NCBI GenBank assembly: GCA_000818095.1
Contig: CP009416.1
Span: 1,844,501 to 1,908,500 of the forward strand
Source of the DNA: Jeotgalibacillus malaysiensis
GTDB taxonomy: Bacteria > Bacillota > Bacilli > Bacillales > Jeotgalibacillaceae
Direction: 5' to 3'
Length of the DNA stretch: 64,000 nt
Shown here in pieces: positions 8,459-50,861 of this stretch. Numbering within the stretch: position 1 is the stretch's first letter; the number at the start of each line of letters is the position of its first letter. The position numbers and the translations under genes were made by a program. A model generated the notes under the pieces. It was not told the DNA's origin, made no database searches, and was given only the letters and a program-made list of their open reading frames with translations.

Positions 8459-9937
8459 TTACAGGATAATGGTAATCATTCCGCCTGAACCTTCATTAAT
8501 GACCCTTTCGAGTGTCTCTTTAAGCTTATACCTCGCATTTTCAGGCATGATGGCAAGCTTTGCCTGTATACCCTCTCTGACAATTGAGCTAAGACTTCTC
8601 CCAAAAATATCAGAACTCCAGATAGATAGCGGATCGTCTTCAAAATCCTGCATTAAGTAATGAACGAGCTCTTCACTTTGTTTTTCAGTACCGATGATCG
8701 GTGAAAATTCAGATTCAACATCCACTTTTATCATATGGATCGAAGGTGCGACTGCTTTTAACCTCACACCATACCGTGCACCCTGACGGATGATTTCAGG
8801 CTCATCAAGACTCATATCTGATAAAACAGGAGCTGCGATGCCATAACCGGTCTGTCTGACCATTTTCAGCGCGTCAGAGAATTGATCGTATTCTTTCTTC
8901 GCTTCTGTATAATCCTTTATTAATGATAAAAAGTGATCTTTTCCTGTTACACGTTCACCGATGAGCTCTTCTATCACCTGATCGTACAATTCTTCGGGAG
9001 CATGAAGGTCAATATTAGCTACACCGCCACCCATATCCATCCCTGAGAGCTGAGCTGTATCTACGTAGTCAAACTCCTCAAACTGTCTGACTACCCTGTC
9101 AACATCCCTGATTCTGCGGATATCATGAATGACATCTCCAATCGCTGTTTCAAAATGGGATCTGAGCCAGTGCTCCTGATCGAGGACCATTACCCATCCC
9201 GGAAGCTGCACGTTCACTTCAAGAACAGGAAATTCGTATAATGCTTCTTTTAGCACCATCATCACATCTGTTTCCCGCATACTTTCAACACTCATCGCTA
9301 CAACAGGCACATCATATTTCACCTGTAATTCTTTTCTTAACGTTTCAGTCTGCTCCTGGTGTGGCCTAGCGCTGTTTAAAACCATAATAAATGGTTTGCC
9401 GACTTCTTTTAACTCTGCAATTATTTTTTCTTCAGTTTCCTCATAGCTCTCTCTCGGAATTTCACCGATCGTGCCATCAGTAGACATCATGACACCGATT
9501 GTTGAGTGATCCTGAATTACTTTTCTTGTACCCGCCTCAGCAGCTTCATCAAATGGAATAGGCTCGTCATACCAAGGCGTATGGACCATTCTGGGACCAT
9601 ATTCATCCTCGTGGCCTTTAGCTCCCGGTATTGTGTAGCCTACACAATCCACCATTCTGACATTGACTTCAAGTCCCTCAGATACTGTAATTTTCACAGC
9701 CTAATTAGGGATGAATTTGGGCTCAGTTGTCATAATTGTGCGACCCGCGGCACTTTGAGGCAGTTCATCCTGTGCGCGCTCTTTTTCTGCAGCATTTTTC
9801 ATATGGGGTATGAGAGCAAGCTCCATCATTTTCTTTATAAAAGTTGATTTACCAGTTCTCACCGGACCAACAACACCAATGTAAATATCTCCTCCCGTTC
9901 TCTCTGCAATATGTTCGAATACATTTTGTTTTTCCAT
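8459..9937 (-). pseudogene. spoIVA: spoIVA, interrupted by in-frame amber codon 79
   Basis: SpoIVA is the ATPase that polymerises on the forespore and anchors the spore coat. From the ATG at 9937 (ribosome binding site GGGGGG) the locus spans 492 codons, the length I recall for B. subtilis. Codons 1-78 include the Walker A motif GPVRTGKST and MTTEPKFIPN, then TAG at 9701-9703. Reading continues in the same frame with AVKITVSEGLEVNVRMVDCVGYT to the normal C-terminus ending GSGGMITIIL. The TAG falls where I recall Gln79 in B. subtilis, so one CAG-to-TAG transition explains it. No other lesion is visible. A GTG at 9697 could start a 412-residue fragment, but it would lack the P-loop. A base-call error is the main alternative. 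Confidence 0.88.
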
Positions 9938-10006
9938 CTGCAAGCCCCCCTGTTTCAGCATCACGCAATTATATTCTATGAGGACATGCTGCAAAAAGAA
10001 CTAAAA

Positions 10007-10032
10007 AAACCGGCTCACTTAAGAACCGGTTT
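10007..10032 (-). terminator. Terminator overlapping yphF stop
   Basis: AAACCGG / CCGGTTT stem whose loop contains the yphF stop codon, followed on the minus strand by a T run. Stem is short (7 bp), so strength is uncertain. Confidence 0.6.
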
Positions 10033-10738
10033 CTTCTCTTCCATATTCAATTTCACCGTCTTCACCCAGGAAGTACGGAACACTGTATGCCGGGATAATC
10101 CTGGATTCCTCAATTAAGATCGGACGCAAATCCTGATCCGCCTGAAACGATGATAAATCACGGTCCTGTGTCAGCTGATAAAGATCAGTAATATAATCCA
10201 GATAAATTGTACCATCTCCACTTGCTACAAACGGCAGTTCATTACCCGTATATGGACTGACAGCAGTCGGATCCTCATCGAATCCAAGCTTACTGTAGTC
10301 AATTGAGTACATATTATCTCCAACCTGCTCTTTAAAAGGAATTCCTCTGTTAGCCTGAACTCTGATTTGAATTGTTCTGATCGTCTCTGCCACTCTTAAG
10401 TCAAATACATAAACAGTTGGATCTTCTTCTACATTTAATAACGCGTACTGAAAAACACCGCCGTTTTCGAATGCATTACCTGGAAGCTCTGCCATAAACC
10501 TCGGCTTCAGCAACGAAAAATCAATCTGATATTTTCTGTAAACAGGTGTATCATTCTCTACAGTTTTAATTGGAAGAAGACCACCCGTATTCTCCTGGTA
10601 CTGGTCTACAGCGGACTGCACACTTTCAATCTGTTCTTCATAAGCAATTTCGTTACCCGCTCTTTCCTGGGAAGGAAACATACAGCCGCCAAGCATGACA
10701 GATAATGCCGCAGCAAGTACAACCAGGCGCTTTTTCAT
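10019..10738 (-). CDS. yphF: YphF-like lipoprotein
   Basis: Predicted lipoprotein of unknown function. 239 residues. The N-terminus has a lipoprotein signal: basic KKR, hydrophobic core and lipobox LGGC with Cys at about residue 19. The rest is soluble and would be displayed outside the membrane. I recognise it as YphF of B. subtilis mainly from position, between spoIVA and yphE, and general pattern. The start has a good AGGGGGAG ribosome binding site. yphE lies 17 nt upstream, so the two are probably co-transcribed. Confidence 0.8.
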   Translation of the reverse strand: MKKRLVVLAAALSVMLGGCMFPSQERAGNEIAYEEQIESVQSAVDQYQENTGGLLPIKTVENDTPVYRKYQIDFSLLKPRFMAELPGNAFENGGVFQYALLNVEEDPTVYVFDLRVAETIRTIQIRVQANRGIPFKEQVGDNMYSIDYSKLGFDEDPTAVSPYTGNELPFVASGDGTIYLDYITDLYQLTQDRDLSSFQADQDLRPILIEESRIIPAYSVPYFLGEDGEIEYGREETGS

Positions 10739-10754
10739 ATTACTCTCCCCCTGC

Positions 10755-10958
10755 TCAGGCTTCCATTGTCGGACCGCTTAAAACGACCCACAGCATGATT
10801 AAACCTGCTAAAATCATAAATACATATGCTGCAAAAGCAGTAATAAACTTAAAAACCCTGTTTGAAATTTTATATCGGCTGAAATAAATAATAATAATTG
10901 CCAGAAACATAAATCCCATTGAACCGAATGAAATCCACATTTTTGTTAAAGCATCCAT
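10755..10958 (-). CDS. yphE: Small membrane protein YphE (DUF2768-type)
   Basis: 67-residue protein with two predicted membrane helices (about 9-27 and 36-61) and a short basic loop between them. Length, two-helix layout and position upstream of yphF match the YphE family found near spoIVA in Bacillus. Function is not known. Ribosome binding site AAGGGTGAG precedes the ATG. Confidence 0.75.
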   Translation of the reverse strand: MDALTKMWISFGSMGFMFLAIIIIYFSRYKISNRVFKFITAFAAYVFMILAGLIMLWVVLSGPTMEA

Positions 10959-11084
10959 TAAAGCTCACCCTTTCACAAAACGTGCCGTTATATTATAGCA
11001 CAAAAAAATATGAATCCCGATTGTTGATCTGGAAGAGTCAGAAAAAGTTCATTCTTTCGAAAATCATGTATTCAATACATTAAA

Positions 11085-11109
11085 AAAACCGGGATTAGTT
11101 CCCGGTTTT
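11085..11109 (-). terminator. Terminator overlapping the gpsA 3' end
   Basis: Ten-bp stem AAAACCGGGA / TCCCGGTTTT with a 5-nt loop, containing the last gpsA codons and followed on the minus strand by a T run. Confidence 0.8.
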
Positions 11110-12150
11110 ACCGTCCTGATCTTCAAGAATATTAACGAGATCTTCCATTTCATGCGTTTTCACTCTCGCCATCAGCTGGTCGACTGCTTCTTTAGGATGC
11201 ACACCTTCAAACAATACATGATACAACGCTGATGTGATCGGCATTGATACATTATATTTATCAGCAAGCTGATAAGCAGCTTTAGTCGTTCTGACACCTT
11301 CTACGACCATTCCCATACTGCTGAGTACTTCTTCAAGCTTGTGACCCTTACCGAGCATATTACCAGCTCTCCAGTTTCTTGAGTGTACACTAGTACAAGT
11401 TACTATCAGATCTCCTACACCCGTAAGACCTGAGAAAGTAAGTGGATTGGCACCCATTTTTGTTCCCAGTCTTGCAATTTCTGCAAGCCCGCGGGTAATC
11501 AGGGCAGCCTTTGCATTATCTCCATAACCAAGGCCGTCAGTAATGCCGGCAGCAAGCGCAATGATATTTTTAAGTGCTCCCCCAACTTCAACACCAACTA
11601 CGTCTGTGTTTGTATAGACTCTGAAATGCTGATTCATGAATGCATCCTGTACTTTTTCTGCTGCTTCGATCTGATCTGAAGCGGCTGTGACAGTTGTGGG
11701 ATGTCTTTTCACGACCTCTTCTGCATGACTCGGTCCCGAAAGAACCACAAGGTCAGACATTACATCAGCAGAGAGTGTTTCTTCAAGAATTTCAGATATT
11801 CTCAAATGTGAATCAGGTTCAATACCTTTACTCACATGAACCACTATTGCCTGCTTCTCTGCAGCAGTGTTTACTTTTTCTGCGACTTCTCTCGTTACTT
11901 TTGCTGGTACTGCAAATACAATCATATCAGCAGAAGAAACTGCTTCTGCCATATCTGAATAAGCTCTGATCAGCTCAGGCAGCTCCGTATCCGGCAGATA
12001 CTTTTGATTTGTATGTGTCTGATTAATTATATCAGCCTGAGCTTCTGTATGAGTCCAGAGTCTCACCTGATGTTTATTATCAGCAAGCACAAGTGCCAGA
12101 GCCGTTCCCCAGCTCCCTGCCCCAAGTACGGCAATGTTCAGATTTGACAC
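11095..12150 (-). CDS. gpsA: Glycerol-3-phosphate dehydrogenase [NAD(P)+]
   Basis: Reduces dihydroxyacetone phosphate to sn-glycerol-3-phosphate for phospholipid synthesis. 351 residues. N-terminal NAD(P) motif VLGAGSWGTALA (about 9-20), VFAVPAKVTREV, and the catalytic region GGALKNIIALAAGITDGLGYGDNAKAALITRG. Lies 20 nt downstream of der with a good ribosome binding site, as in B. subtilis. Confidence 0.96.
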   Translation of the reverse strand: MSNLNIAVLGAGSWGTALALVLADNKHQVRLWTHTEAQADIINQTHTNQKYLPDTELPELIRAYSDMAEAVSSADMIVFAVPAKVTREVAEKVNTAAEKQAIVVHVSKGIEPDSHLRISEILEETLSADVMSDLVVLSGPSHAEEVVKRHPTTVTAASDQIEAAEKVQDAFMNQHFRVYTNTDVVGVEVGGALKNIIALAAGITDGLGYGDNAKAALITRGLAEIARLGTKMGANPLTFSGLTGVGDLIVTCTSVHSRNWRAGNMLGKGHKLEEVLSSMGMVVEGVRTTKAAYQLADKYNVSMPITSALYHVLFEGVHPKEAVDQLMARVKTHEMEDLVNILEDQDGKTGN

Positions 12151-12170
12151 AATTAAAACCTCCCCTTATC

Positions 12171-13487
12171 CTACTTCCTTGCTCTTGCAATCAGCCTAAT
12201 CGGTGTTCCTTCGAATCCGAATGCTTCTCTTATACGGTTCTCGAGAAATCTTTCATATGAAAAATGCATCAGCTCAGGTTCATTTACAAAAATAACAAAG
12301 GTCGGCGGTTTAACAGCAACCTGAGTGGCATAAAAGATTTTCAATCTTCTGCCGTTTTCTGTAGGTGTCGGATTCATGGCTACAGCATCCATCACCACTT
12401 CGTTCAGTATGCTTGACTGAACTCTCATTGAGTGATTTTCACTCGCCATATTAATTACCGGGAGCAATGTGTGTATTCTCTTTTTCGTGAGTGCGGATAC
12501 AAATACAATTGGCGCGTAATCAAGGAACTGGAAATGAGCCCTGATTGTTTTTTCAAACTTGTCCATTGTTTTTTCGTCTTTCTCTACAGCATCCCACTTG
12601 TTTACGACAATAATCACGGCACGACCTGCATCATGTGCATAGCCAGCGATTTTTTTATCCTGATCGATGATTCCCTCTTCTCCATCAATCAGCACAAGCA
12701 CAACGTCTGAACGTTCAATTGCTCGCAGTGCCCGAAGCACGCTGTATTTTTCAGTGGATTCATAAACTTTACCTTTTTTACGCATACCTGCAGTATCAAT
12801 AATGACATATTCCTGACCGTCATATTTGTAAGGTGTATCAACCGCATCTCTGGTCGTACCTGCTACATTGCTGACAATTACCCGCTCTTCTCCGAGCAGA
12901 GAGTTAACAAGGGATGATTTCCCTACGTTAGGTCTGCCAATGAGAGAAAACTTAATAACCTCATCACCGTAATCTTCAATTTCACGCTTATCAAAGTGCT
13001 CTGCAGCAGCGTCAAGCAAATCTCCAAGGCCAAGACCATGAGAGCCAGAGATTGGGTAAGGTTCTCCAAAACCGAGTGAATAAAAATCATAAATCTGGTC
13101 TCTCATTTCAGGATTATCGACCTTATTCACTGCAAGGACGACAGGCTTGTTAGACTTATATAAAATCTTTGCTACGTGTTCATCTGCAGAGGTTACCCCT
13201 TCACGTCCGTTTGTCATAAAAATAATGACATCCGCCTCATCAATGGCGATTTCAGCCTGCTGTCTGATCTGCTCTAAAAATGGCTCATCACCTATATCAA
13301 TACCACCTGTATCAATAATATTAAAGTCATAATTCAGCCATTCTGCTGAACTGTAAATACGATCTCTAGTAACTCCGGGAGTATCTTCCACAATTGATAC
13401 TCTTTCTCCTACAACTCTGTTAAAAATAGTGGATTTCCCTACATTCGGGCGACCAACTATCGCAACGACCGGCTTTGCTTTTGCCAT
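12171..13487 (-). CDS. der: Ribosome biogenesis GTPase Der
   Basis: Essential double-GTPase for 50S subunit assembly. 438 residues. Two G domains each with a P-loop GRPNVGKS (about 12-19 and 183-190), DTPG / DTAG switch motifs and NKVD / NKWD specificity motifs, then a C-terminal KH-like domain ending IRLIARARK. The ATG at 13487, preceded by AAAGGGTG, is preferred over an ATG nine codons upstream. The stop is TAG, showing that TAG is a normal terminator in this genome. Confidence 0.97.
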
Positions 13488-13603
13488 GACGTTCACCCTT
13501 TCTACACACTTCATTTAAAGTGTACTATCAATTTATTCGTTCTATACAGCCAAATCATTGTATCAGTAATTAATTTAATGCACAATGACTCTCCATACAA
13601 GTA

Positions 13604-13634
13604 AAAGCTGATTTCTGGTAAGGAAATCAGCTTT
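13604..13634 (-). terminator. Probable terminator after fni
   Basis: Twelve-bp stem AAAGCTGATTTC / GAAATCAGCTTT with a 7-nt loop, between fni and der. The T run on the minus strand is short (TTTTACTT). Confidence 0.6.
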
Positions 13635-13659
13635 CATTATAACATTATTTAATCACTAC

Positions 13660-14709
13660 TTAAGATCTTCTGCTGAAAAGTTCAGGTGAAAAGCCTCTTA
13701 CATTCAGCCAATGATATAGATTGCCTGTCAACACGACAGGTATATGTTTCAGATCAGCAACAGTTTTACATCCAAGTGCTGTCATCATCATAATCAGATC
13801 ATCCTGAAAAAATTTAATTTCTTCGACTAACTGCTTTTCACCCTGTTCAGTTAGAATTCTCAAAAACGATCCTGCAATTCCCGCTGCAGATGCACCGAGT
13901 AATAAGCTTTTTAACACATCTGAACTTTTATGTATCCCGCCGGAAGCAAGTACATCCTTATTCGTAACTGCGGCTGTCTCAACAATAGAAGCGGCAGTTG
14001 GAATTCCCCATTCATTAAAAAACAGCTTTTTTCTCTCCTGTCTGTTATTTTCAATGCTAGAGAAATTAGTTCCGCCATAACCCCCTGCATCAATCGCTGC
14101 AATCGATGTCTCGTTCAACTTAACTGCAGCTTCACTGCTGATCCCAAAGCCGGTTTCTTTCACAATTACCGGTATCGGTAACTCATCTGAGATCCGTGCA
14201 ATCCTTTCGAGCGCCCCGTTGAAAGCGCGGTCTCCTTCAGGCATAGCAAGCTCCTGAATCACGTTCAGATGAATCTGGAGCGCATCAGCTTCAATCATTT
14301 CAGCTGCTTCGATTGCTTGTGATACGGTTGCTTCACTTCCAATATTACCGAAAATCAGCCCGTCAGGATTTTCTTTTCTCACAACCTGATAAGTATGACG
14401 TTCCTGCTTATCTTTAATAGCAGACATCTGAGATCCTACAGATAGTGCAATCCCTGTTTCTTTTGCTGCTCTTGCAAGAGAAGCATTAATTTCTGATGTT
14501 TTCTCTCCACCCCCGCCAGTCATGGCGTTGATAAAAAAAGGCGAACTTAGTAAAAGTCCGCCTACTTCAGAGTGAAGAGAAACATCATTAACAGAACGAT
14601 CCGGCAGACTCTGATGAACAATTACCACTTCATCAAAGCCTGTTTTTCCGGATTGTTTGTCAGATAAAGCATATTCAATATGATCTAATTTTCTTTTCGC
14701 TCTGCTCAC
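13660..14709 (-). CDS. fni: Isopentenyl-diphosphate delta-isomerase, type 2
   Basis: FMN-dependent interconversion of IPP and DMAPP. About 349 residues. Motifs: NAMTGGGG (substrate/FMN loop), SVGSQMSAIKD, QIHLNVIQELAMPEGDR, the phosphate-binding GGYGGTNF and LASGGIHKSSDV. A GTG at 14709 is taken as start because AGGTGG lies 6 nt upstream and the protein begins MSRAKRK; an in-frame ATG at 14715 abuts the ribosome binding site. Directly downstream of the S1-domain gene. Confidence 0.95.
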   Translation of the reverse strand: MSRAKRKLDHIEYALSDKQSGKTGFDEVVIVHQSLPDRSVNDVSLHSEVGGLLLSSPFFINAMTGGGGEKTSEINASLARAAKETGIALSVGSQMSAIKDKQERHTYQVVRKENPDGLIFGNIGSEATVSQAIEAAEMIEADALQIHLNVIQELAMPEGDRAFNGALERIARISDELPIPVIVKETGFGISSEAAVKLNETSIAAIDAGGYGGTNFSSIENNRQERKKLFFNEWGIPTAASIVETAAVTNKDVLASGGIHKSSDVLKSLLLGASAAGIAGSFLRILTEQGEKQLVEEIKFFQDDLIMMMTALGCKTVADLKHIPVVLTGNLYHWLNVRGFSPELFSRRS

Positions 14710-14723
14710 ATTCATCCACCTAA

Positions 14724-15869: not shown

Positions 15870-15995
15870 ATGTACTCCTCCTTAATCCAAGACTGCTGAA
15901 ATTGACTTAAATGTGAAAAAATTCACAGTTTAATGTTAAATTCAGAATATACTACTAACTTCTAATAAATAGCCCTGTTTGTCAAGCGAGAACTT

Positions 15996-18079: not shown

Positions 18080-18228
18080 TTAAAGCTTTTCTACTTTTTC
18101 TTCCTGACCGTTGTCTGCATCAATATAAATTCTATAGGTTTCATCTGGCCCTTCTGATATGCTGCAAAAGCTGCAGCAGAAAAAGCAGTTAAAAATAATA
18201 CGATGAGGATTGTTTTTTTCCAGTTCAT
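18080..18228 (-). pseudogene. ypeB: ypeB remnant with large internal deletion
   Basis: YpeB is a ~450-residue membrane-anchored germination protein that stabilises SleB. Here, 16 nt after sleB and behind an AGGAG site, an ATG at 18228 opens a basic, hydrophobic N-terminus (MNWKKTILIVLFLTAFSA...) that continues for about 28 codons. Further down, in another frame, 18080-18142 reads ETYRIYIDADNGQEEKVEKL then TAA, which I recognise as the conserved YpeB C-terminus. Around 400 codons between them are missing, with the junction near 18141-18150. The fused frame codes only a 45-residue peptide. The motI gene follows as in intact genomes. Confidence 0.83.
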
Positions 18229-18244: not shown

Positions 18245-19012
18245 TTACAGACAGAAAATATGTTCACCTATCTTTTTAATTTGAGGTCTTGTCCAAATCC
18301 ATTTACTAGTAGCAGTAACTGGATTGAAATAATACAACGCATTTTCAGACGGATCCCATCCATTTATCGCATCCATCACTGCACGCCTTGCCTGATCATT
18401 TGGGGTCAGCCAGATCTGTCCGTCAGCTACGGCAGTAAATGCCAGCGGTTCAAAAATGACTCCAGATGCCGTGTTAGGAAAAGCCTCATCCTCAATACGA
18501 TTTAAAATTACTGCAGCAACAGCCACCTGCCCTTCATACGGCTCCCCTCTTGCTTCTCCATACACTGCATTCGCCATAAGTTTAATATCGTTCTCTGAAT
18601 ATCCATTAGGTAACTTTAATTTTTTTGAAACTGTTTCTTTTTTCACCTGATTCTCAAGAGGTGTTCCCCCGTAATGAGTAAATTTTGTTCCTTTATTTAT
18701 GTTCTCTTTAACAAATGACTCATTGTATTGACTGGCATTGATTAGCTTCTGTCTAGTTTCAGGACCCGCGAGGCCGTCAATTTCCATACCATAATCAGCT
18801 TGAAAATTTCTCAGTGCCCAATAGGTGCCCCACCCAAAATCTCCATCAATTTGCCCTTTATAGTAGCCGATATATTGAAGTCTGGATTGTAGCTCGATCA
18901 CATCATCACCAAAAGCCCCTTTTTGAATAACCTGTCCACTGAATGAATCAGTTTCTGCTACGCTGCTAAAAAAGACCGTTAGTGCAAAGATAAAAACAAA
19001 ACTTTTTTTCAT
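18245..19012 (-). CDS. sleB: Spore cortex-lytic enzyme SleB
   Basis: Lytic transglycosylase of spore cortex peptidoglycan, used in germination. 255 residues: signal peptide (about 1-22), a peptidoglycan-binding domain with GDDVIELQSRLQYIGYYKG and RNFQADYGMEIDGLAGPET (about 30-95), a linker, then the catalytic Hydrolase_2 domain (about 145-255) with NAVYGEARGEPYEGQVAVAAVILNR carrying the catalytic Glu. Start at 19012 behind GGAGGAA. The gene looks intact although its partner ypeB next door is destroyed, so the product may be unstable or inactive in vivo (inference). Confidence 0.92.
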   Translation of the reverse strand: MKKSFVFIFALTVFFSSVAETDSFSGQVIQKGAFGDDVIELQSRLQYIGYYKGQIDGDFGWGTYWALRNFQADYGMEIDGLAGPETRQKLINASQYNESFVKENINKGTKFTHYGGTPLENQVKKETVSKKLKLPNGYSENDIKLMANAVYGEARGEPYEGQVAVAAVILNRIEDEAFPNTASGVIFEPLAFTAVADGQIWLTPNDQARRAVMDAINGWDPSENALYYFNPVTATSKWIWTRPQIKKIGEHIFCL

Positions 19013-19107
19013 ACAGATTCCTCCAGTTGAACTGTTACTCTTAATCTGAACCAATATTCGCGTTCTATTCAAAACAAATGAAACGACATAGACCAAAAAT
19101 CAAAATA

Positions 19108-19133: not shown

Positions 19134-19798
19134 CAGGTCAATTTTGTTTTATGGTGCGCATCAGTCAGAATATGAGCTTTTTTTACCTTCCACAAACCAA
19201 ACCACCAGAGAAAGAGCATAAAAGGTACCATGTAATAGATCCAGTTCCTGCTGCTGATTAGAATAAAATCATAAGTAGTATGGAGAAGAATTGGTAATAG
19301 TAATGAAATCAGCACAAATAATTTTCTGTTAAGATGGAACTTAGCTTTTCCTATGTAATAGCCCATCACTACTCCAAAAAGCGCATGGCTTGATACTGGT
19401 AAAAGCGCTCTCCCGACTGCTGCATCCAAACCGTAAACAGCCAGATATAAAACATTTTCGAGTGTGGCAAATCCCAGTGAAACCGCAGCACCGTATACAA
19501 TACCATCATATGGTTCATCAAATTCAACAAGATGAAAAATAAAAAAATATAAAATAAACCATTTAAAAAATTCTTCTAACAATCCGTATGCGAGAAATGA
19601 CTGCACCAGCATACTGGAAAAATCAGTTTCAACCTCAATCACATATTGCAAAAACATAACGGGAAACGTAACAGCAACTCCTAAGATAAACGCTCTGAAA
19701 ACGACCCTGACTGGCTCTGAGTCATATTGGTCCCTTAAATAAAAATAACTTAGAAGAGCAAGTCCCGGTGCTATCGCAGCTGAAATTAGAGCGATCAT
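19133..19798 (-). CDS. prsW: Intramembrane protease PrsW
   Basis: Site-1 protease that cleaves the anti-sigma factor RsiW in response to envelope stress. 221 residues with about seven to eight hydrophobic segments. Catalytic landmarks of the PrsW/CAAX-like superfamily: GLLEEFFKWF (EExxxK), AAVSLGFATLENVLY and SHALFGVVMGYYIGKAKF. The ATG at 19798 is chosen over one six codons upstream because AGAGG lies 7 nt before it. Located beside sleB as in B. subtilis (ypdC). Confidence 0.93.
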   Translation of the reverse strand: MIALISAAIAPGLALLSYFYLRDQYDSEPVRVVFRAFILGVAVTFPVMFLQYVIEVETDFSSMLVQSFLAYGLLEEFFKWFILYFFIFHLVEFDEPYDGIVYGAAVSLGFATLENVLYLAVYGLDAAVGRALLPVSSHALFGVVMGYYIGKAKFHLNRKLFVLISLLLPILLHTTYDFILISSRNWIYYMVPFMLFLWWFGLWKVKKAHILTDAHHKTKLT

Positions 19799-39325: not shown

Positions 39326-40393
39326 TTGGTGGATCTTATTAAAAAAATCTTCATTGTTTCTTTACTTTTTTTTCTATGGTATAAGCCGGTTTTCGCAATT
39401 GATGTCTCTGCGCAATCCTCCGTTATGATTGAAGCGGAAAGCGGCAGAGTAATCTTCAATAAAGATGAACATGAAAAAATGAAAATAGCAAGCATTACGA
39501 AAATCATGACCGCTCATTTAGCAATTAAACACGGTGATTTGTCTGACAAAGTTAAAATATCCAGCAAAGCGTCATCTACTGAGGGATCGAGCCTTTATTT
39601 GAAAAATGGACAAACCGTTACGCTTGAATACCTGATTTACGGTCTCATGCTCAGATCCGGTAATGATGCTGCAGTGGCGATTGCTGAGCATATCAGTGGT
39701 TCAGTAGAAGCGTTCGCTGAACTGATGAATAAAGAAACTGAAGCATTAAAAATGACAAATACTTATTTCACTAACCCGCACGGACTAGATACAGACGACC
39801 GGCATGTCTCAACGGCTTATGATATGGCAATACTAACTCAGCAGGCAATCAGAAATAAAACATTTAAAAAAGTCTTTTCAACTGCAAAATATACTCCCTC
39901 TTATAAAGATGCCTATCCCTGGACGAATAAACACCGGCTCGTAACCGGTCTTTATCCTCATGCTGATCGAGGTAAAACGGGATATACGAAAAAAGCAGGC
40001 AGAACGCTTGTGACGACTGCACATAAAAACGATATGACATTCATAGCTGTAACGATTAATGGACCTGATGACTGGAATGATCATATGTCACTTTTCGAGC
40101 ATGCATTTACCCACTATAAAATGACGGAGCTCCTTGCAAAAGGTCCACTTCCAATTCTTCCTGGAATGCCTGATCAAATTCAGTACATATCAGAGGTTAA
40201 CCGAAAAATGCCTTTAACTACTGAAGAACGTCAACAGCTTGTCTATCAGATCGTGCCCGAAAAAAAACCGGTCTTAAATATATATATTAATCGTACAGAA
40301 ATCCTCAGCACCCCAATTAAGGAAAAGAAAATTGAAGCACCTTCAGCGTATGAGAACCTGATCAGAAAGTTAAAGGAGCTTTTCAAATGGTGA
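39326..40393 (+). CDS. dacB: D-alanyl-D-alanine carboxypeptidase DacB (sporulation type)
   Basis: Low-molecular-weight PBP that trims peptidoglycan side chains, in B. subtilis of the spore cortex (PBP5*). 355 residues: signal peptide (about 5-24), catalytic SITK (Ser about 56), SGN (about 111) and KTG in RGKTGYTKKAGR. Shorter at the C-terminus than the ~380 residues I recall. Start is TTG at 39326 or GTG at 39329 with only a weak GAGAG site, so the start is uncertain. Overlaps spmA by 7 nt. Reads intact despite sporulation lesions elsewhere. Confidence 0.88.
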   Translation: MVDLIKKIFIVSLLFFLWYKPVFAIDVSAQSSVMIEAESGRVIFNKDEHEKMKIASITKIMTAHLAIKHGDLSDKVKISSKASSTEGSSLYLKNGQTVTLEYLIYGLMLRSGNDAAVAIAEHISGSVEAFAELMNKETEALKMTNTYFTNPHGLDTDDRHVSTAYDMAILTQQAIRNKTFKKVFSTAKYTPSYKDAYPWTNKHRLVTGLYPHADRGKTGYTKKAGRTLVTTAHKNDMTFIAVTINGPDDWNDHMSLFEHAFTHYKMTELLAKGPLPILPGMPDQIQYISEVNRKMPLTTEERQQLVYQIVPEKKPVLNIYINRTEILSTPIKEKKIEAPSAYENLIRKLKELFKW

Positions 40394-40980
40394 ATTTAAT
40401 TTGGATTTTCATGCTTATCTCAGGTATTATTTACAGTATTTTCAACGGAACTGTTGATGAAGTCAATAAAGGTTTATTTGATTCAGCAGGGCAGGCTGTT
40501 GAACTGGTTATAGGTTTCGCTGCAGTTTTTACACTCTGGCTCGGTATGATGGAGATCGCTAAGCGTTCCGGATTGCTCAATAAGATTACAAAAATCTGCT
40601 ACCCTATTGTAAGAAAACTATTCCCTGATTTTCCTGCGAATCATCCTGCTGCAGGTTATATGATGACAAATTTTTCAGCAAATTTTTTTGGTTTAGGAAA
40701 TGCTGCCACGCCTTTTGGTGTGAAAGCGATGAAAGAATTACAGACAATCAACCCGACTCCTGACAAGGCCAGCAGATCAATGGTCACTTTTCTATGTCTT
40801 AACACAGCTGCTGTCACGTTCTTTCCTGCCACCATCGTTTCAATGCGTCTTTCTGAAGGCGTTGCGGATCCACTGGATATTGTTATCCCGGCATTTATTG
40901 CAACAATCTGCTCCTGCACGGCTGCAATGATCTATGACAGAATCAGCTGGAGAATTACTTCAGGTAGACATCATGATTGA
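40387..40980 (+). CDS. spmA: Spore maturation protein SpmA
   Basis: 197-residue nucleoside-recognition (Gate) domain membrane protein with several helices; in B. subtilis needed for spore core dehydration. Recognised by AAVFTLWLGMMEIAKRSGL, TNFSANFFGLGNAATPFGVKAMKEL and FLCLNTAAVTFFPATIVSMR. Sits between dacB and spmB with overlapping ends, the canonical dacB-spmA-spmB order. No lesion seen. Confidence 0.93.
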   Translation: MVNLIWIFMLISGIIYSIFNGTVDEVNKGLFDSAGQAVELVIGFAAVFTLWLGMMEIAKRSGLLNKITKICYPIVRKLFPDFPANHPAAGYMMTNFSANFFGLGNAATPFGVKAMKELQTINPTPDKASRSMVTFLCLNTAAVTFFPATIVSMRLSEGVADPLDIVIPAFIATICSCTAAMIYDRISWRITSGRHHD

Positions 40981-41515
40981 ACTGATCTATTTATCAAAGC
41001 TGATATTACCTTTATTAATACTTACGATTCTTTTAGCCGCTCTTTTTACAAAAACAGATGCATACAGTGCTTTTGTCAGCGGTGGTAAAGAAGGCTTGCA
41101 AATGGCTGCTGAACTCCTTCCTTTTCTGGTCGGTATGATGGCTGCAATCAGTGTATTACGATCATCCGGACTGCTGCTCTATATAACAAATCTGATTGCA
41201 CCTTTATTTGCTTACTTCAGCGTGCCAGCAGAGCTATTCCCGCTTTTTCTGACACGCCCGATATCCGGCACAGCAGCACTTAGTATAACAGCTGATCTGA
41301 CTCATACGTATGGACCTGAGCATATGATTTCACGGCTCGCAGCAGTCATTCAGGGTAGCACTGATACTACTTTGTATGTTTTGACTATTTATTTTGGAGC
41401 TGTCGGAATTAAAAAAATGGGTAGAGCGCTTGCAGTCGGGTTGCTTGCTGATCTGACAGGTATGATCCTTGCTGTAATGATTACAGTATGGTATTTCCAA
41501 AACATTTGGAGCTGA
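40973..41515 (+). CDS. spmB: Spore maturation protein SpmB
   Basis: 180-residue companion of SpmA with the same Gate-type fold: VSGGKEGLQMAAELLPFLVGMMAAI, FLTRPISGTAALSI and VIQGSTDTTLYVLTIYFGAVG. The ATG at 40973 overlaps the spmA stop by 8 nt and gives MIELIYLSKLI; an open frame continues upstream within spmA. Intact. Confidence 0.92.
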   Translation: MIELIYLSKLILPLLILTILLAALFTKTDAYSAFVSGGKEGLQMAAELLPFLVGMMAAISVLRSSGLLLYITNLIAPLFAYFSVPAELFPLFLTRPISGTAALSITADLTHTYGPEHMISRLAAVIQGSTDTTLYVLTIYFGAVGIKKMGRALAVGLLADLTGMILAVMITVWYFQNIWS

Positions 41516-42608: not shown

Positions 42609-42695
42609 TCAGACAATGAAAACCCAGTAAATAATCCCCCAGATTACTGCAAGAATTAAAAGTGAGATAAAGGTTAATGCATTTTGTTTTTTCAT
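42609..42695 (-). CDS. Possible 28-residue single-pass membrane peptide after lysA
   Basis: ATG at 42695 overlaps the lysA stop (TAATG) and encodes MKKQNALTFISLLIL... to a TGA at 42609. The peptide has two lysines then one hydrophobic helix ending WVFIV. AGGAG lies 13 nt upstream, farther than ideal, so translation would depend on coupling to lysA. No family recognised; chance is possible at this length. Confidence 0.4.
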   Translation of the reverse strand: MKKQNALTFISLLILAVIWGIIYWVFIV

Positions 42696-44020: not shown

Positions 44021-44101
44021 GTTGCAATCCCTTCTTTACTGCAGAATATCATTAATAGATAGTAAGTACATTACCACAGTAAAGCGTTTTAATGCAATTG
44101 A

Positions 44102-45561
44102 TTAATGGGAACGATTCTGTCTGACCCTGTCTTCTGCTTTAACAATCATCGGTCTAATAACAGTGTTAGTGACCGGAACTCTTGTTTTGACCTGCCATAA
44201 TGCTAAAGGTCTGAATGGTAGCAACGGCCAGAGATAAGGTACGGTGAATACTTTCATCTGTGCAAGAAAAACGATTAAGAGCGTCAACCCGATAATAAAA
44301 CCTGAAGTATGGAAAAATGCTGTCATAATCAGCAGAAAAATACGTGCAAATTTATTCGCAATGCTCAGCTCATAGCTTGGCGTTGCAAACGTGCCGATCG
44401 CTGCTACCGCTACATATAAAATCACTTCAGGAACAAATAACCCGACATCTATTGCAATCTGTCCAATCAGTACTGCAGCAATTAAGCCCATTGCAGTAGA
44501 TAATGGCGTAGGAGTATGGATCGCTGCCATTCTTAAAAATTCAATACCGATATCAGCTAATAACAGCTGCAGGATTAAAGGCACGGCAGCATCTTCTTTT
44601 ACACCGATAAATGAAAGAGCGTCAGGCTTCAAAGCGGGATCGATCGCCATCAAATACTAGAGTGGCAATAAAATAATGGAAGCTGCGATACCTGTAAACC
44701 TGATAAACCTGAGCATGGTTCCGGCAGCAGGAGATTGTCTGTATTCTTCTGCGTGCTGTGTGTGATGAAAAAAAGTTGAAGGTGCAATAATAACACTTGG
44801 AGATGTATCGATATAAGTACATATATGTCCTTCGAGCAGATGCTCAGCGGCAATATCAGCACGTTCAGTAAATCTGACCATTGGATAAGGATTAAACCCC
44901 TGTTTTACAATATATTCTTCAAGTGATTTATCTGTCATCACAAGACCGTCTGTATGAATCTGTTTAATTTCCTGTTTAATAATATCAATTAATTCCTTGT
45001 TTGCAATTCCTTCAATATAGCCGATTGCCACATCCATTTTTGACCTTTCACCGATCTCAAGCATCTCAAAGCGGATCCCTTTATCTCTGATTCTTCTTCT
45101 GGTTAAAGCCGTGTTTACGATAATATTTTCAACAAACCCGTCCCGCGAACCTCTTACTACTTTTTCATTATCCGGTTCTTCCGGCTGTCTTCCGGGATAA
45201 GTTCTGACATCAATCAGAAAACATTCAGAGTCCCCATCAATTTTTATTGCAATCAGACCTGTAAAAACCTGTCTGATCAGCTCATCCACCAGATCTGTTT
45301 TTTCAACAGAATGGTGTATGATTCTCTGATTAACAAGTGCTTTAAAATCCTTTTTCCGATCCATTTCGTGTAAGGCACTTAGTTCATCCAGAATCTCCAT
45401 AGTAAAAAGTGTCTCACACAGCCCATTCACTGCACATAGCTGAATACTATGATGACCGAAATCAATTTTTCTCATGATGAAATCAAAACTTAAGCCCAAA
45501 CCGGCTTCTTTTAGCAGACTGTATAATTCCCGATTTTTTTAGGGATTTTGTTCTTTTTCAT
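44102..45561 (-). pseudogene. spoVAF: spoVAF with a frameshift and an in-frame amber codon
   Basis: GerA-like membrane protein of the spoVA operon, involved in germination. The locus begins at ATG 45561 with a GGAGGGG site, but that frame stops after 16 codons. The conserved frame (ELYSLLKEAGLGLSFDFIMRKID) is offset by one missing base, probably in the poly-A/GGG stretch at 45530-45540. It then reads well through VNGLCETLF, DVRTYPGRQPEEPD and RFTGIAASIILLPL until TAG at 44657-44659, and continues in the same frame with YLMAIDPALKPDALSFIG to a normal end. The TAG probably replaced Trp. Restored length is about 486 residues, near the family norm. Two independent lesions make it non-functional. 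Confidence 0.88.
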
Positions 45562-45635
45562 TCAACCCCTCCATATCGGTAAAAAGATCAGCCAGTAAAA
45601 TAGTGAACCGGCTACTTTTCCCGCTATAATTGCAG
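45562..45635 (-). pseudogene. spoVAB: Possible spoVAB tail
   Basis: In one frame this stretch reads AIIAGKVAGSLFYWLIFLPI then WRG and TGA directly before the spoVAF ATG. The pattern GK-x2-GSLF-x-WL resembles what I recall of the SpoVAB C-terminus. It has no start and joins a dacF scrap on its upstream side. Identification is from memory of a short motif, so it is tentative. Confidence 0.45.
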
Positions 45636-45841
45636 TGCAGAAGTGTACCGATCTTTGTCATTGAAGATGGTGGAAGCTGTTTATCTGCATTTTATTCGTA
45701 AAGCACCATACCGGTATCCGCATCTATTAAAATCGCGGACTTAACCTGCTCGAGATTGGGTTCTGCCGCAAATGCAGGGTTAATGAGACAAAAAAACAAG
45801 CTGACACAAAGTAGGGATAATTGTATCTTCAACTCACACAC
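45636..45841 (-). pseudogene. dacF: dacF 5' remnant
   Basis: From a GTG/TTG at 45841/45832 the frame reads a signal peptide (LKIQLSLLCVSLFFCLINPAFA) and KSAILIDADTGMVLYE, then TAA at 45692-45694, then NADKQLPPSSMTKI, the SxxK active-site region of DacF-type D-Ala-D-Ala carboxypeptidases. Homology ends a few codons later. The TAA replaces what is probably Lys. In sporeformers dacF heads the dacF-spoIIAA-spoIIAB-sigF transcript, and this position between pdp/deoB and lysA is its normal place. All downstream genes up to spoVAF are gone. Confidence 0.8.
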
Positions 45842-45987
45842 GCCCTTTTGAGGTTTTTATTATGATTGCTGAATCCGGCTATTTTTATACATTTCTTTGT
45901 AAAAGGAAGCTGTTTGTAAATGACAAAATAAACTCTTTTAAATGAGAGCAGTTGATTGATCACGTAATTAAAATCAGGCAAATAAAA

Positions 45988-46016
45988 AAGAGAGTGGACT
46001 TCAGTCCCACTCTCTT
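45988..46016 (-). terminator. Terminator after pdp
   Basis: AAGAGAGTGG / CCACTCTCTT stem with a one-base bulge near the loop, followed on the minus strand by TTTTTATT. Confidence 0.8.
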
Positions 46017-46053
46017 AACGAAATAAATTAAAGCATCCTGACATTGTTGATGA

Positions 46054-47361
46054 TTAAGCTCCCGTCACCTGATCGACAATTAGTGCCGGTGCGTGCCCCT
46101 CAGCTGATACTTCAATACTTTCATATAATTTTGACTTAACTTTCTCAACTTCACTTAAGTCATTTGCGTAAATTGTTACCAATGATTCTCCTTCATTTAC
46201 AGTGTCTCCAACCTTCTTTTGAAGCACAAGACCAACTGCAAGATCGATCTCACTTTCTTTGGTTGCTCTTCCAGCTCCAAGCCACATTGCTGCTGTACCT
46301 ACATTATCAGCAATGATACGGCTTACTTGACCACTTGATTTTGCAGGCAGCTCAATTTTATGCTCAGCCTGAGGCAGTTTTGATGGGTCATCCACAACAG
46401 ATGCATCGCCGCCCTGTCCAGCAAGAAAAGCCTTAAAGCGATTGAGAGCTTCTCCGCTCGAAATGGCGTCTTCGAGCATTTTCCTTGCTTCTTCATGCGA
46501 TTCAGCTTTTTTAGACAGTACAACCATATGACTGCCTAATACCAGACAAAGCTCAGTCAGATCTTCAGGTCCTTCGCCTTTCAGTGTATCAATTGCTTCT
46601 TTCACTTCTAGCGCATTACCAATTGCAAATCCGAGCGGCTGGCTCATATCTGAGATGACAGCCATCGTCTGCCTGCCAACATTGTTACCGATCTTAACCA
46701 TCGCTTCTGCAAGTTCACGCGCCTGAGCTTCATCCTTCATGAATGCGCCTGCACCTGTCTTGACATCAAGAACGATTGCGTCTGCACCCGCAGCTATTTT
46801 TTTACTCATAATAGAGGATGCAATTAAAGGAATACTATTAACTGTTGCTGTTACATCACGTAGTGCGTATAGCTTTTTGTCAGCAGGCGTAAGATTTCCG
46901 CTTTGTCCAATGACTGCAAGTTTTTCTTCATTTACAAGACGTGTGAATTCATCGCTTGATAATTCAACATGAAAACCTGGCACTGCTTCAAGTTTATCGA
47001 TTGTCCCACCTGTATGGCCCAGTCCGCGTCCACTCATTTTTGCAACCGGCACACCCGCAGCTGCCACTAGTGGACCAAGGATCAGCGTGGTTGTATCACC
47101 AACACCACCTGTAGAGTGCTTGTCGACTTTAATCCCTTCAATTGCTGACAGATCGATCTGATCACCAGACTCTACCATCGCCATTGTCAGATCCGCACGT
47201 TCTGACTGAGACATCCCCTCAAAATAAATCGCCATTAATAAAGCGCTTACCTGATAGTCCGGAATTGTTTCGTTCGTATAGCCCTCGATGACAAATTTAA
47301 TTTCTTCAGTCGTCAGCTCTTCACCATTTCTTTTCTTTTCAATTACATCTACCATTCTCAT
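46054..47361 (-). CDS. pdp: Pyrimidine-nucleoside phosphorylase
   Basis: Phosphorolysis of uridine, thymidine and deoxyuridine. 435 residues. Signature [41 protein letters not shown] and [14 protein letters not shown]-terminal biotinyl/lipoyl-like hammerhead fold domain. Lies 70 nt downstream of deoB, so nucleoside salvage genes are grouped; punA, which sits between them in B. subtilis, is absent. Confidence 0.96.
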
Positions 47362-47431
47362 TTTATAATGCCTCTTTTCAATGTATATTGTAATGGTTCA
47401 GGACAGCGGTACTGCCCTGAACAACCTAACA

Positions 47432-48619
47432 TTATTTCATTAGCTCCTGTAAAAAGCTTTTACCAAACTCAGGTGCTTTCACTTTAAAGTTATCTGCAAC
47501 TGTTGCACCGATATCAGCAAAAGTTTCTCTAAGCGGCATTTCCCCGCCGTTTTTCATTTTTGGTGAATAAACAAGAAGCGGGACATATTCCCTTGTGTGA
47601 TCAGTCCCGTGATGTACCGGATCATTACCGTGATCTGCTGTAATGATTAAAAGATCATCATCAGTCATCTTTTCAAATACCTCAGTCAGTCTCTGATCGT
47701 ATTCTTCAAGTGCTTTACCGTAACCTTCAGGATCCCTTCTGTGACCAAAAAGCGCGTCAAAATCAACAAGATTCAGGAAGCTGAGCCCAGTGAAGTTTTT
47801 ATCGAATGTCTGAATAAACTTATTCATTCCATCCATGTTACTTGATGTGCGGATTGATTCAGTCACGCCTTCACCATTGTAAATATCAGAAATCTTTCCG
47901 ATCGCAATCACATCATAGTTTGCATCTTTCAATTCGTTCATAACAGTTCGGTTGAATGGTTTTAATGCATAATCATGTCTATTAGATGTACGCTTAAACG
48001 ATCCCGGCTCGCCTACGAATGGTCTCGCAATAATACGCCCTACCAGATATTGATCATCAAGCGTCAGTTCACGGGCAATCTCACAAATTTTGTACTGCTC
48101 TTCAATCGGAATAATATCTTCATGAGCAGCAATCTGGAGAACAGGATCGGCTGATGTGTAAACAATCAGTGCTCCTGTTTTCATATGCTCTTCACCTAAT
48201 TCGTCTAAAATTGCAGTCCCGCTTGCCGGCTTATTTCCAATTACTTTACGACCTGTCTTTTCTTCAAGTGCCTCGATCAGCTCTTGTGGAAAGCCCTCAG
48301 GATATACTTTAAATGGCGTATCAATATTCAGGCCCATGATTTCCCAATGGCCAGTCATTGTATCTTTACCAACTGATGCTTCCTGCATTTTTGTAAATTT
48401 CGCCATAGGCTGATCTGCTTTTGAAATACCTTTAATTTCTTCAATATTGGATAATCCGAGCTTACCCATATTTGGCATCTTCAGTCCACCCATGTGATCT
48501 GCAATATGCCCAAGTGTATGTGCGCCTTCATCGTTAAATGCTGCAGCATCCGGTGCTTCACCGATTCCGACAGAATCCATCACAACGAGATGAATACGTT
48601 TAAATTGATTATCGCTCAT
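47432..48619 (-). CDS. deoB: Phosphopentomutase
   Basis: Interconverts (deoxy)ribose-1-phosphate and 5-phosphate; alkaline-phosphatase-superfamily metalloenzyme. 395 residues. Metal motif [14 protein letters not shown], phospho-acceptor region [13 protein letters not shown], and metal ligands in [14 protein letters not shown] and [19 protein letters not shown]. Excellent AGGAGGAAGATTAAATG start. Follows xerD. Confidence 0.96.
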
Positions 48620-48717
48620 TTAATCTTCCTCCTTCATTCATTAACTTTATTGTACCTATTCTCATATTAACCTTACAAGAGAAACGTCTGAAGTCTGACA
48701 ACTTATTTTTCCGAGAG

Positions 48718-49599
48718 TTAAGCCCTCGGATGAAACTTGGAATAGACTTCTCTGATCCTTTTCGTAGAAACATGTGTGTAAATTTGAGTAGTAGAAATAT
48801 CTGCGTGGCCAAGCATTTCCTGAACAGCTCTTAAATCCGCACCATTTTCAAGGAGGTGCGTTGCAAACGAATGCCTGAGTGTATGGGGCGTCAGTTCTTT
48901 TTCAATTCTCGCTTTATCAGTAAGTGCCCTGAGAATTTTCCAAAAACCCTGTCTGCTTAATCTCCGTCCGTGATGATTTAAAAACAGTGCCTGTTCTCCA
49001 GGTTTACGGCCGCTGCTCTTTCTTAGGTATTGGGAGATTACGTTAGATGCAGTTTGTCCAATAGGAATAATCCTTTCTTTATTTCCCTTTCCCCTGCACT
49101 TAATAAACCCCATCTCGAGGTTAATATCATCCGTATTCAAATTGATTAATTCACTTACCCTCATGCCTGTACCATATAGAACCTCTAGCATGGCTTTATC
49201 TCTCAGTCCCTGCTTTTTAGTCATATCCGGACTTTCAAGTAGCGCCTCTACTTCATCTATACTTAACACCTTTGGCAGCGTTTTTTCAGCTTTAGGAGTA
49301 TTTAAATGTTCTGTAGGATCCTGATCACACAGCCTGTTTCTCATTAAGTAATGATGAAAAGACCTGATTGAAGATGTATGTCTTGCGATTGTTTTTGCAG
49401 ATTTCCCCTGTTGTTTTAAATGCTGAAAAAACTGCAGCACATGTAATCTCTGTACATCACAAATTTTTGATATCATCTCGACCTTCATCAGGTAATCTGT
49501 ATAACTTCTCAGATCTCTTTCGTATGATTGAACTGTATTTTTAGACAGCCCTTTTTCAATAATCATATACTGTATAAAATCCTGTAACTGATCTTTCAT
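48718..49599 (-). CDS. xerD: Tyrosine recombinase XerD
   Basis: Resolves chromosome dimers at dif with XerC. 293 residues: N-terminal SAM-like core-binding domain (1-85) and catalytic domain with Arg in [12 protein letters not shown], Lys in [14 protein letters not shown], HxLRH in [18 protein letters not shown], His in MLGHADIS and Tyr in [11 protein letters not shown] at 49599 behind GGGGTGAGGG. Orthology to B. subtilis ripX/xerD is supported by fur upstream and deoB downstream. Confidence 0.95.
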
Positions 49600-49704
49600 T
49601 CCCTCACCCCGCTTCAATTCTATTTTAATAGCTATAAAACAGAAAGTCATCTATGTGGTCAACTTTAATTTCAGCGGTTACACATTAAGATGAAAACAAA
49701 AAAA

Positions 49705-49722
49705 CCATGCACGCATGCATGG
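49705..49722 (-). terminator. Terminator after fur
   Basis: CCATGCA / TGCATGG stem with CGCA loop followed on the minus strand by TTTTTTTG. Confidence 0.75.
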
Positions 49723-49733
49723 CTGAATATGTT

Positions 49734-50168
49734 TTACTGGCATCTATGACATATTCCATGGAATGTCAGTCGGTGATCTTTAATTTTAAAATTCCAGTCA
49801 CGTTCTACAATTTCTTCAACATCTTCTAGTAAATCATCCTGAATTTCATCAACAGCACCACACTCAAGACAGATCAAATGATGATGGAAGTGCGCTGCAC
49901 CCTCTTTACGTAAATCATATCTTGAGACGCCGTCTCCGAAATTAATTTTATCCACTACTTTCAGTTCTGACAATAGTTCAAGTGTCCGGTAGACAGTTGC
50001 AAGTCCAATTTCAGGCGCTTTATCTTTCACTAATAAGTAAACATCTTCTGCGCTAAGGTGATCAGCTTCGTTCTCAAGTAATACCCTGACTGTTGCTTCA
50101 CGCTGAGGGGTCAATTTATAGCTCGCTGAATGAAGCTGCTTTTTAATTCGATCAATCCGATTCTCCAC
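49734..50168 (-). CDS. fur: Ferric uptake regulator Fur
   Basis: Iron-responsive repressor, 144 residues. Winged helix with TPQREATVRVLLENEADHLSAEDVYLLVKD and ATVYRTLELLSE (about 55-70), metal sites AHFHHHLICLECGAVDEI (His-rich plus CxxC) and C-terminal HGICHRCQ (CxxC). It is placed next to xerD as in B. subtilis. A Fur/PerR-like palindrome lies upstream. Confidence 0.94.
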   Translation of the reverse strand: MENRIDRIKKQLHSASYKLTPQREATVRVLLENEADHLSAEDVYLLVKDKAPEIGLATVYRTLELLSELKVVDKINFGDGVSRYDLRKEGAAHFHHHLICLECGAVDEIQDDLLEDVEEIVERDWNFKIKDHRLTFHGICHRCQ

Positions 50169-50227
50169 AATTACCCCTCCCTCACAATATCATCAATATT
50201 ATATCAAACGAAATCCTATTTGCAAAC

Positions 50228-50240
50228 AATAATCATTATT
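50228..50240. promoter_or_regulatory. Fur/PerR-box-like operator upstream of fur
   Basis: Perfect 6-1-6 palindrome AATAAT-C-ATTATT, about 60 nt before the fur ATG. It fits the core of Fur (TGATAAT-N-ATTATCA) and PerR (TTATAAT-N-ATTATAA) boxes; which protein binds cannot be told from this. Confidence 0.5.
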
Positions 50241-50278
50241 AATTAGTAGTTCGACACATTACTTTATAACACTTATTA

Positions 50279-50861
50279 TTATGTAATAAAAATTCTAATT
50301 AAAAAAGACGGAATATAATATTCGATTACACCTGCGAGTCCTGCAACTATCGTAATACTGCCCAAAAGCATCAGATAAGTGACCCCTGTACTTTTAACAG
50401 TATATACAAAAGGCTGTCTTGCGCCAATGCCCTTCCAGATCAATCCTGCAAGAATTAATGACTCAGCACCGAGTACGAGATAAGCGGGAATCATCAGCAG
50501 ATTCTGAGGAACCAGAACAATCAGTGCTTCAGCCAGTCCTTTTAAGCCTCCTCATAAACCATCATGCCGGCAGCAAACCCAAAAAGGCAGCCTTTCATTT
50601 AGATTAAAAACCAAGCAATCGGCAGCCCAGCTAATGTAAATCCTGAAGTCCAGATAAACAATAAAATCAATAAATCAATTAAAACAGCACTGAGTACCTT
50701 TCCATCTCCTGTAAGCTCAAAGCCTGGCATCATTTGAACAGGCGCATAAATATTAACTAACAGGGCCCTTGCTGCTGTACCACCTGTAAGCAAAATGAAA
50801 ATAAATAAATAAATAATAGGCGATATGGTTTGACACGTGCTGCAATATGCTTCCGCTTATA
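50279..50861 (-). pseudogene. spoIIM: spoIIM with nonsense codon and frameshifts
   Basis: SpoIIM is a ~200-residue membrane protein of the engulfment DMP complex, normally beside fur. Pieces occur in order on the minus strand: KRKHIAARVKPYR (50819-50858, no start codon), then in another frame YLFIFILLTGGTAARALLVN...GLPIAWFLI ending at TAA 50599-50601, then in the same frame MKGCLFGFAAGMMVYEEA to another TAA, then in a shifted frame GLKGLAEALIVLVPQNLLMIPAYLVLG to the end. Total span is about 194 codons, near normal, so losses are small indels and point changes. At least one nonsense codon and two frameshifts are present. Confidence 0.83.

Follow-up and report, generated by a model that had tools for sequence, protein, structure and literature searches.

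Does Jeotgalibacillus malaysiensis D5T, a member of a genus termed endospore-forming (PMC13348283), still possess a working sporulation programme? The question is raised by a 64,000-nucleotide stretch of its chromosome (positions 1,844,501-1,908,500; hereafter, the window), in which the sporulation or germination loci spoIVA, ypeB, spoVAF, spoIIM and the dacF-sigF-spoVAB region are disrupted. Comparison with related genomes indicates that D5T has very probably undergone a recent, natural and continuing loss of sporulation on its own branch, starting from a spore-forming Jeotgalibacillus ancestor.

The genome of D5T was reported to comprise chromosome CP009416 (3,516,439 bp) and megaplasmid pJeoMA (603,070 bp), assembled with HGAP from PacBio RS II reads only (PMC5027565), and the assembly analysed here consists of two replicons of 3,516,439 and 603,070 bases. 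The comparison set included this genome (G000) and 11 congeners, 12 genomes altogether. The nearest congener, G004, is the sister of D5T with a tree support of 1.000 and shares about 79% nucleotide identity with it within the window. For the wider comparison, 1,066 open reading frames (ORFs) of G004 were matched against 0.89 Mb of the D5T genome, window included.

Disrupted sporulation genes in the window

A sequence-only reading of the window had pointed to five broken sporulation or germination loci, and comparison with G004 showed that all five lesions are real (Table 1). Apart from its single stop, spoIVA is colinear with the G004 gene at 98% identity, and the part downstream of the stop (412 amino acids) still matches TIGR02836 with 647 bits. 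Each of the 12 genomes has one copy of spoIVA; the stop is found in D5T only and in none of the 11 congeners. SpoIIM scores above the cut-off in 11 of 11 congeners, while only a fragment is left in D5T. The ypeB remnant was recognised by tblastn with the congener YpeB, a protein with Pfam YPEB domains, and by comparison of sizes. The gene that we take to be spoVAF, from its position between spoVAB and lysA, has GerXA as the nearest NCBIfam model, with a score below the cut-off.

The largest lesion is a deletion of about 3.5 kb in which spoIIAA, spoIIAB, sigF and spoVAA disappeared completely, together with the 3' part of dacF and the greater part of spoVAB; at the junction the dacF 5' remnant adjoins the spoVAB 3' remnant (dacF and spoVAA are presumed names, given from gene order). 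In G004 (C2:497050-502314), the sigF operon includes spoVAA, spoVAB and spoVAF, and spoVAC-AD-AEB stand apart from it; in B. subtilis, by contrast, the spoVA genes form a single operon.

The other genes of the window are full length, as had been proposed. Among 63 mapped G004 ORFs (60 amino acids or longer, identity of 45% or more, with 14 sporulation genes set aside), 60 gave simple full-length matches, and in our reading the remaining three are one spurious short ORF and two differences in start or end, with no true lesions. The idea that sporulation genes were selectively destroyed thus holds as regards selectivity but not as uniform destruction, since sleB (283 amino acids in D5T versus 287 in G004), dacB, spmA and spmB in the same window stay open; the names of the last three are our assumption from gene order.

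Disrupted sporulation genes outside the window

The decay of sporulation genes extends far beyond the window. The gene for SpoIIE, whole in 11 of 11 congeners, has lost codons ~102-517, and only the N-terminus and the phosphatase part remain. Relative to G004, 2.6 kb covering spoIIIAB-AF are missing, with spoIIIAG and spoIIIAH open, and in-frame losses of 1.6 kb and 0.4 kb affect spoVD and yqfD. Smaller lesions relative to G004 are three 1-base indels in spoVE, a 1-base deletion in ylmC, and a 1-base deletion together with a stop in spoIVB. Only 43 codons of gpr and 150 of the 503 codons of spoVB are left, safA carries several indels and stops, and the gene presumed to be spoIVFB from its place, alongside a Pfam M50 match, has a 2-base deletion and a 33-base insertion. 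A separate locus has lost spoVAC, cotZ and most of spoVAD, and its cotO has a stop (cotZ and cotO were judged against G004 only); SpoVAD is above the cut-off in all 11 congeners. In two genes the damage is confined to a shifted C-terminus, caused by a 1-base insertion close to the 3' end of spoIIIAA and a 2-base deletion near the 3' end of spoVS. In the sampled part of D5T the gerXA-gerXB operon of G004 has no counterpart, as judged by comparison with G004 alone. Leaving spoVS and the ger operon out of the tally, the loci hit number about 17, five of them inside the window and about twelve elsewhere, and the eight measured losses span 0.4-3.5 kb.

The absence of sigF, noted earlier for its conserved position, was established at the level of the genome: the sigF model has a match above the cut-off in all 11 congeners, in D5T its best match is sigG, and none of the 20 sigma-70 region 2 matches in the genome reaches the sigF cut-off. 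Searches of the genome found neither an intact sigF operon nor another copy of sigF, spoIVA or spoIIM. In terms of gene content, sigF, spoIVA, spoIIE, SpoIIM and SpoVAD are above cut-off throughout the congeners, and in D5T sigF is absent, spoIIE and spoIIIAB-AF are broken, and spo0A, sigE, sigG and sigK are open.

Selectivity of the decay

The published list of core sporulation genes contains 58 entries, of which 45 were assessed; spo0J, cwlD, dapB, spoIIID, spoIIIJ, jag, spoVK, stoA, ylbJ, ytvI, yyaC, alr and lgt make up the other 13. Nineteen of the 45 are broken or absent, including sigF, spoIIE, spoIVA and spoIVB, 24 have whole frames, and two (spoIIIAA and spoVS) have a shifted C-terminus only.

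The background consisted of 759 G004 ORFs of at least 100 amino acids matched at 45% identity or more, with the 25 broken or absent sporulation genes excluded. Shorter ORFs, those with a lower best identity and those without a match were dropped before the count; 82 ORFs of at least 90 amino acids had no match, most of which lie in what looks like phage DNA or belong to an island of G004. The stop and coverage criterion was passed by 743 of 759 ORFs. Hand reading of the 16 flagged ones gave three broken non-spore genes (Table 1), spoIIIAA, three ORFs cut by the edges of stretches, one intron case, and eight start differences or spurious or variable ORFs. Once the 24 genes labelled as spore or core are taken out of these 743, there are 719 whole non-spore genes, among which a few unlabelled spore genes may remain. 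The intron case is a ribonucleotide reductase gene (C1:1959088-1962907) split by an insertion of ~1.1 kb with an ORF of ~300 amino acids resembling Vsr/DUF559 endonucleases. The insertion probably represents a group I intron that encodes a homing endonuclease; at the gathering threshold, Rfam reported no intron there. The gene was read as intron-split and not counted as broken.

Lesions therefore affect 19 of 45 core spore genes versus 3 of about 722 non-spore genes (Fisher's exact p = 8e-23). Because they fall almost only on sporulation genes, both sequencing error and general decay are unlikely explanations, and general decay of the sampled 0.89 Mb was rejected, with only three non-spore genes broken.

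Table 1. Disrupted and intact features of the window (positions counted from its first nucleotide) and non-spore lesions in the wider comparison
Feature	Position	Strand	State
spoIVA pseudogene	8459..9937	-	One TAG in frame, 9701-9703 (codon 79 of 492); P-loop lies upstream of it
ypeB remnant	18083..18228	-	About first 33 and last 30 codons left; 1.17 kb lost
spoVAF pseudogene	44102..45535	-	In-frame TAG at 44657-44659
spoVAB 3' remnant	45565..45645	-	27 codons at deletion junction; PF13782 on congener protein
dacF 5' remnant	45638..45832	-	65 codons, in-frame TAA at 45692-45694
spoIIM pseudogene	50282..50811	-	Indels of 4 and 1 bases and one stop
sleB	18245..19096	-	Open frame; small indels only in N-terminal region; TIGR02869 above cut-off
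dacB-like D-Ala-D-Ala carboxypeptidase	39326..40393	+	Intact, 355 amino acids in D5T and G004; carboxypeptidase families
spmA	40387..40980	+	Intact, full length; Pfam Gate domain
spmB	40934..41515	+	Intact, full length; Pfam Gate domain
ABC-F ATPase, non-spore lesion	C1:1728810-1730399		Heavily decayed, many stops
EamA transporter, non-spore lesion	C1:2264849-2265777		1-base deletion, possible PacBio error
yqhG, non-spore lesion			12-, 1- and 12-base deletions

Sporulation genes that keep open frames

Genes spo0A (TIGR02875, 392 bits), sigH, sigE, sigG, sigK and spoVT are full length relative to G004. By their model scores sigH, sigE, sigG and sigK are identified as such; SigG reaches 455.6 bits where the TIGR cut-off is 457, and is above the cut-off of a second SigG model. 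Also open are spoIIGA, yabP, yabQ, yabG, dpaA, dpaB and spoIIIAG (spoIIGA, dpaA and spoIIIAG with scores below the NCBIfam cut-offs), spoIIP, spoVID, spoIIIAH, spo0B, spoVG, yqfC, pth, obg, spoVAEB and two genes for small acid-soluble spore proteins (SASP). The frame of spoIIR is open, and its score is below the cut-off in all 12 genomes. That of spoIID is open as well, with 324 amino acids in D5T versus 334-354 in ten of 11 congeners (339 in G007), and its N-terminus may be shortened. The genes that we take to be dapA, spoIIIE and cotE were named from sequence and gene order; for cotE, an ORF at 1652056-1652583 in the genome's own numbering, the presumed identity comes from the N-terminus. 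Another gene first taken as cotE was rejected, being a GlpP antiterminator.

Timing of the loss

Recent, continuing decay predicts an excess of amino acid changes in the broken genes and none in the surviving ones. We counted changes on the D5T and G004 branches at sites where outgroups G001, G006 and G011 agree, using nucleotide alignments trimmed near deletions. The ratio of D5T to G004 changes was 906:591 in other genes and 117:36 in 12 broken spore genes (p = 8e-5 versus other genes). For spoIIGA, sigE, sleB, dacB, spmA, spmB and spoIIP, seven spore genes that are open, it was 60:41, which does not differ from the other genes (p = 0.83) but does from the broken ones (p = 0.005).

Neutral amino acid replacement was set to 0.36 per codon on the basis of the four-fold-site rate. 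The resulting model, rough and resting on small numbers, puts the share of the terminal branch spent without constraint at 5% (2-8%) for the broken genes and 1% (0-5%) for the seven open ones. Taken singly, sigE shows a weak excess (0.05, 0.01-0.11), and among 152 control genes the interval lies above zero in three, one of which is sigK (0.10, lower bound 0.01). The share for spoIVA, 0-0.04, looks younger (5 versus 3 changes over 472 sites), and its stop was apparently one of the last lesions to arise. The proposal that decay is recent and continuing is supported by the excess change in broken genes, its absence in the seven survivors together and the variety of lesion kinds. These data suggest that the loss is recent on the D5T branch, yet the accumulated change far exceeds what laboratory passage should fix.

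Contrary evidence and alternative explanations

Several observations weigh against a recent loss of sporulation in D5T. Since the assembly is PacBio-only, the single 1-base indels in ylmC, spoIVB and spoIIIAA and one of the indels in spoIIM could be sequencing errors. The dacF remnant (0.68, 0.22-1.0, 43 sites) and spoIVB (0.20, 0.06-0.35) look older than spoIVA, and a single date for the loss fits only marginally (heterogeneity p = 0.048). D5T was counted among sporulating species (PMC7924749), and at least ten of its sporulation genes were induced at high salt, from which possible endospores were suggested (PMC5027565); spores of D5T are not shown in the available parts of either paper.

The alternative that fares best, though very unlikely, is that D5T still forms a resting structure by a pared-down programme without sigma-F. 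'Cryptosporulation' has reportedly been proposed for Kurthia. Open frames of sigE, sigG, sigK, spoIID, spoIIP, spoIIR, spoIIIAG/AH, dpaA/B, cotE and the two SASP genes would fit such a programme, as would the lack of relaxed constraint in the seven survivors taken together. There is a slight chance that a sigma-F-independent resting state keeps sigE, sigG, sigK, SpoIID/P/R, SpoIIIAG/AH, the dipicolinic acid (DPA) synthase, and coat and SASP genes under selection; its footprint would be a staggered loss, with an old dacF-sigF deletion and a very late spoIVA stop. However, the intervals of the survivors (0-5%) and the broken genes (2-8%) overlap, so that a recent loss which some genes have by chance escaped is explanation enough; sigE and sigK taken singly show a weak excess; and spoIVA, spoIVB, spoIIE, spoVAC/AD and gpr are broken as well. 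A selected resting state of this kind is not needed to explain the data.

Laboratory domestication, in which the type strain would have lost sporulation in culture before it was sequenced, is very improbable. Such loss is quick in batch or continuous culture (PMC11914059), and spoIVA is almost without change other than its stop, but about 17 loci have been hit, the eight losses that were measured amount to 0.4-3.5 kb each, and the 12 broken genes carry ~60 excess changes (117 observed versus 36 x 1.53 = 55 expected), far more than would be expected to become fixed in the laboratory.

Errors of sequencing or assembly are a very improbable source of the pattern. One-base indels are the usual residual error of PacBio data, and several of the lesions are of this type; two of the three non-spore genes (EamA and yqhG) also contain one. 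However, errors would not single out spore genes, nonsense substitutions and kilobase deletions differ from the PacBio error mode, and the excess of amino acid changes is separate from the indels.

Readthrough of stop codons or a suppressor tRNA keeping the TAG-bearing genes functional has almost no probability: TAG interrupts both spoIVA and spoVAF and ends only 4 of 64 window genes listed, and there is a large tRNA array on the megaplasmid, but within this array none of the 43 tRNAs has a CUA anticodon (in one the anticodon is oddly 4 bases long), and reading through a stop does not bring back deleted genes, so that the deletions in sigF, spoIIE and spoIIIA largely refute it.

The suggestion of a newly asporogenous lineage caught in mid-decay is supported by the specificity of the lesions, the lineage test and the full-length sigE, sigG, sigK and spo0A; the phenotype, a lack of heat-resistant spores, is a prediction.

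Proposed course of the loss and predicted phenotype

Under a recent natural loss, selection on sporulation would have ceased late on the D5T branch, and relaxed selection would have allowed deletions, nonsense mutations and small indels in spore-only genes to become fixed. Consequences for the pathway were taken from the established sporulation scheme of B. subtilis. Spo0A and sigma-H could still act at the start of the pathway. Without sigma-F and its regulation by SpoIIAA, SpoIIAB and SpoIIE, the forespore programme would not begin, and sigma-E and sigma-G would not be switched on in the normal way. Subsequent steps would lack either parts or a trigger: the SpoIIR signal to sigma-E, engulfment (SpoIIM), the SpoIIIA channel, the coat basement (SpoIVA), activation of sigma-K (SpoIVB, SpoIVFB), the cortex (SpoVB, SpoVD, SpoVE) and DPA uptake (SpoVAC/AD). 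With engulfment and cortex not completed, D5T should make no heat-resistant spore. Genes spo0A and sigH may be kept for vegetative roles, and sigE, sigG, sigK, spoIID/P/R and dpaA/B may be present since chance has not yet hit them.

Other genome features

The tRNA array of the megaplasmid (G000, C2:400600-411800) is dense, with its 43 genes on one strand and one of them bearing the 4-base anticodon; why tRNAs are so abundant on pJeoMA was called unclear (PMC5027565). Two adjacent glycine riboswitch aptamers (Rfam RF00504) were found in stretch L151 at 19207-19380.

Comparison with known spore-less Firmicutes

At the level of titles and abstract openings of the open-licence literature, no report of sigF or sporulation loss in J. 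malaysiensis was found. The loss of SpoIIIAC and SpoIIIAE and the absence of SpoIIM in D5T had been noted, and the missing SpoIIIAC and SpoIIIAE were taken as grounds for studying sporulation in such organisms (PMC7924749). That work reads the losses as lineage variation in sporulating species; here they are part of a wider decay that includes sigF. The lack of SpoIIM, SpoIIIAC and SpoIIIAE in D5T should not be cited to show that engulfment in a spore former can dispense with them, and the gene profile of this strain is best set aside in arguments on unusual engulfment until spores are shown. Likewise, salt-induced sporulation genes should not be taken as spore formation without a test. What is new is the half-way snapshot and the conflict with the 'sporulating' label of D5T; the phenomenon itself is of a known kind.

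Where the programme was lost long ago, as in spore-less Bacilli without all sporulation sigma factors (PMC3533761), the order of loss is unreadable. D5T was caught part-way, and with a cultured type strain, a complete genome and gene-keeping relatives the order and pace of dismantling become measurable.

Recently spore-less, or non-sporogenous, Firmicutes are a known class sensu Onyenwoke 2004, summarised in Galperin 2012 (PMC3533761). Like them, D5T keeps Spo0A and many sporulation genes, its relatives hold the lost genes, and the mutations are recent; unlike them, with 'only a few' mutations (PMC3533761), it has about 17 loci hit, with readable remnants, which places it between this class and deep loss. 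The deeply asporogenous class retains few if any sporulation genes, whereas 24 of 45 assessed core genes are whole in D5T. Bacillus selenitireducens, Exiguobacterium and Macrococcus resemble D5T in keeping Spo0A, and they lack essential sporulation genes that include sigF, spoIIE, spoIIM and spoIVA (PMC3533761, Table 5), all of them lost or broken in D5T. However, they are without sigE, sigF, sigG, sigK and SASP genes (PMC3533761), while of these four sigma factor genes D5T is without sigF only, and it keeps two SASP genes. Eubacterium rectale shares with D5T the loss of sigF, spoIIAA, spoIIM, spoIIIAB and spoIIIAF (PMC3533761, Table 5), but it is a clostridium that is also without spmA, spmB and yabQ (PMC3533761), which are open in D5T.

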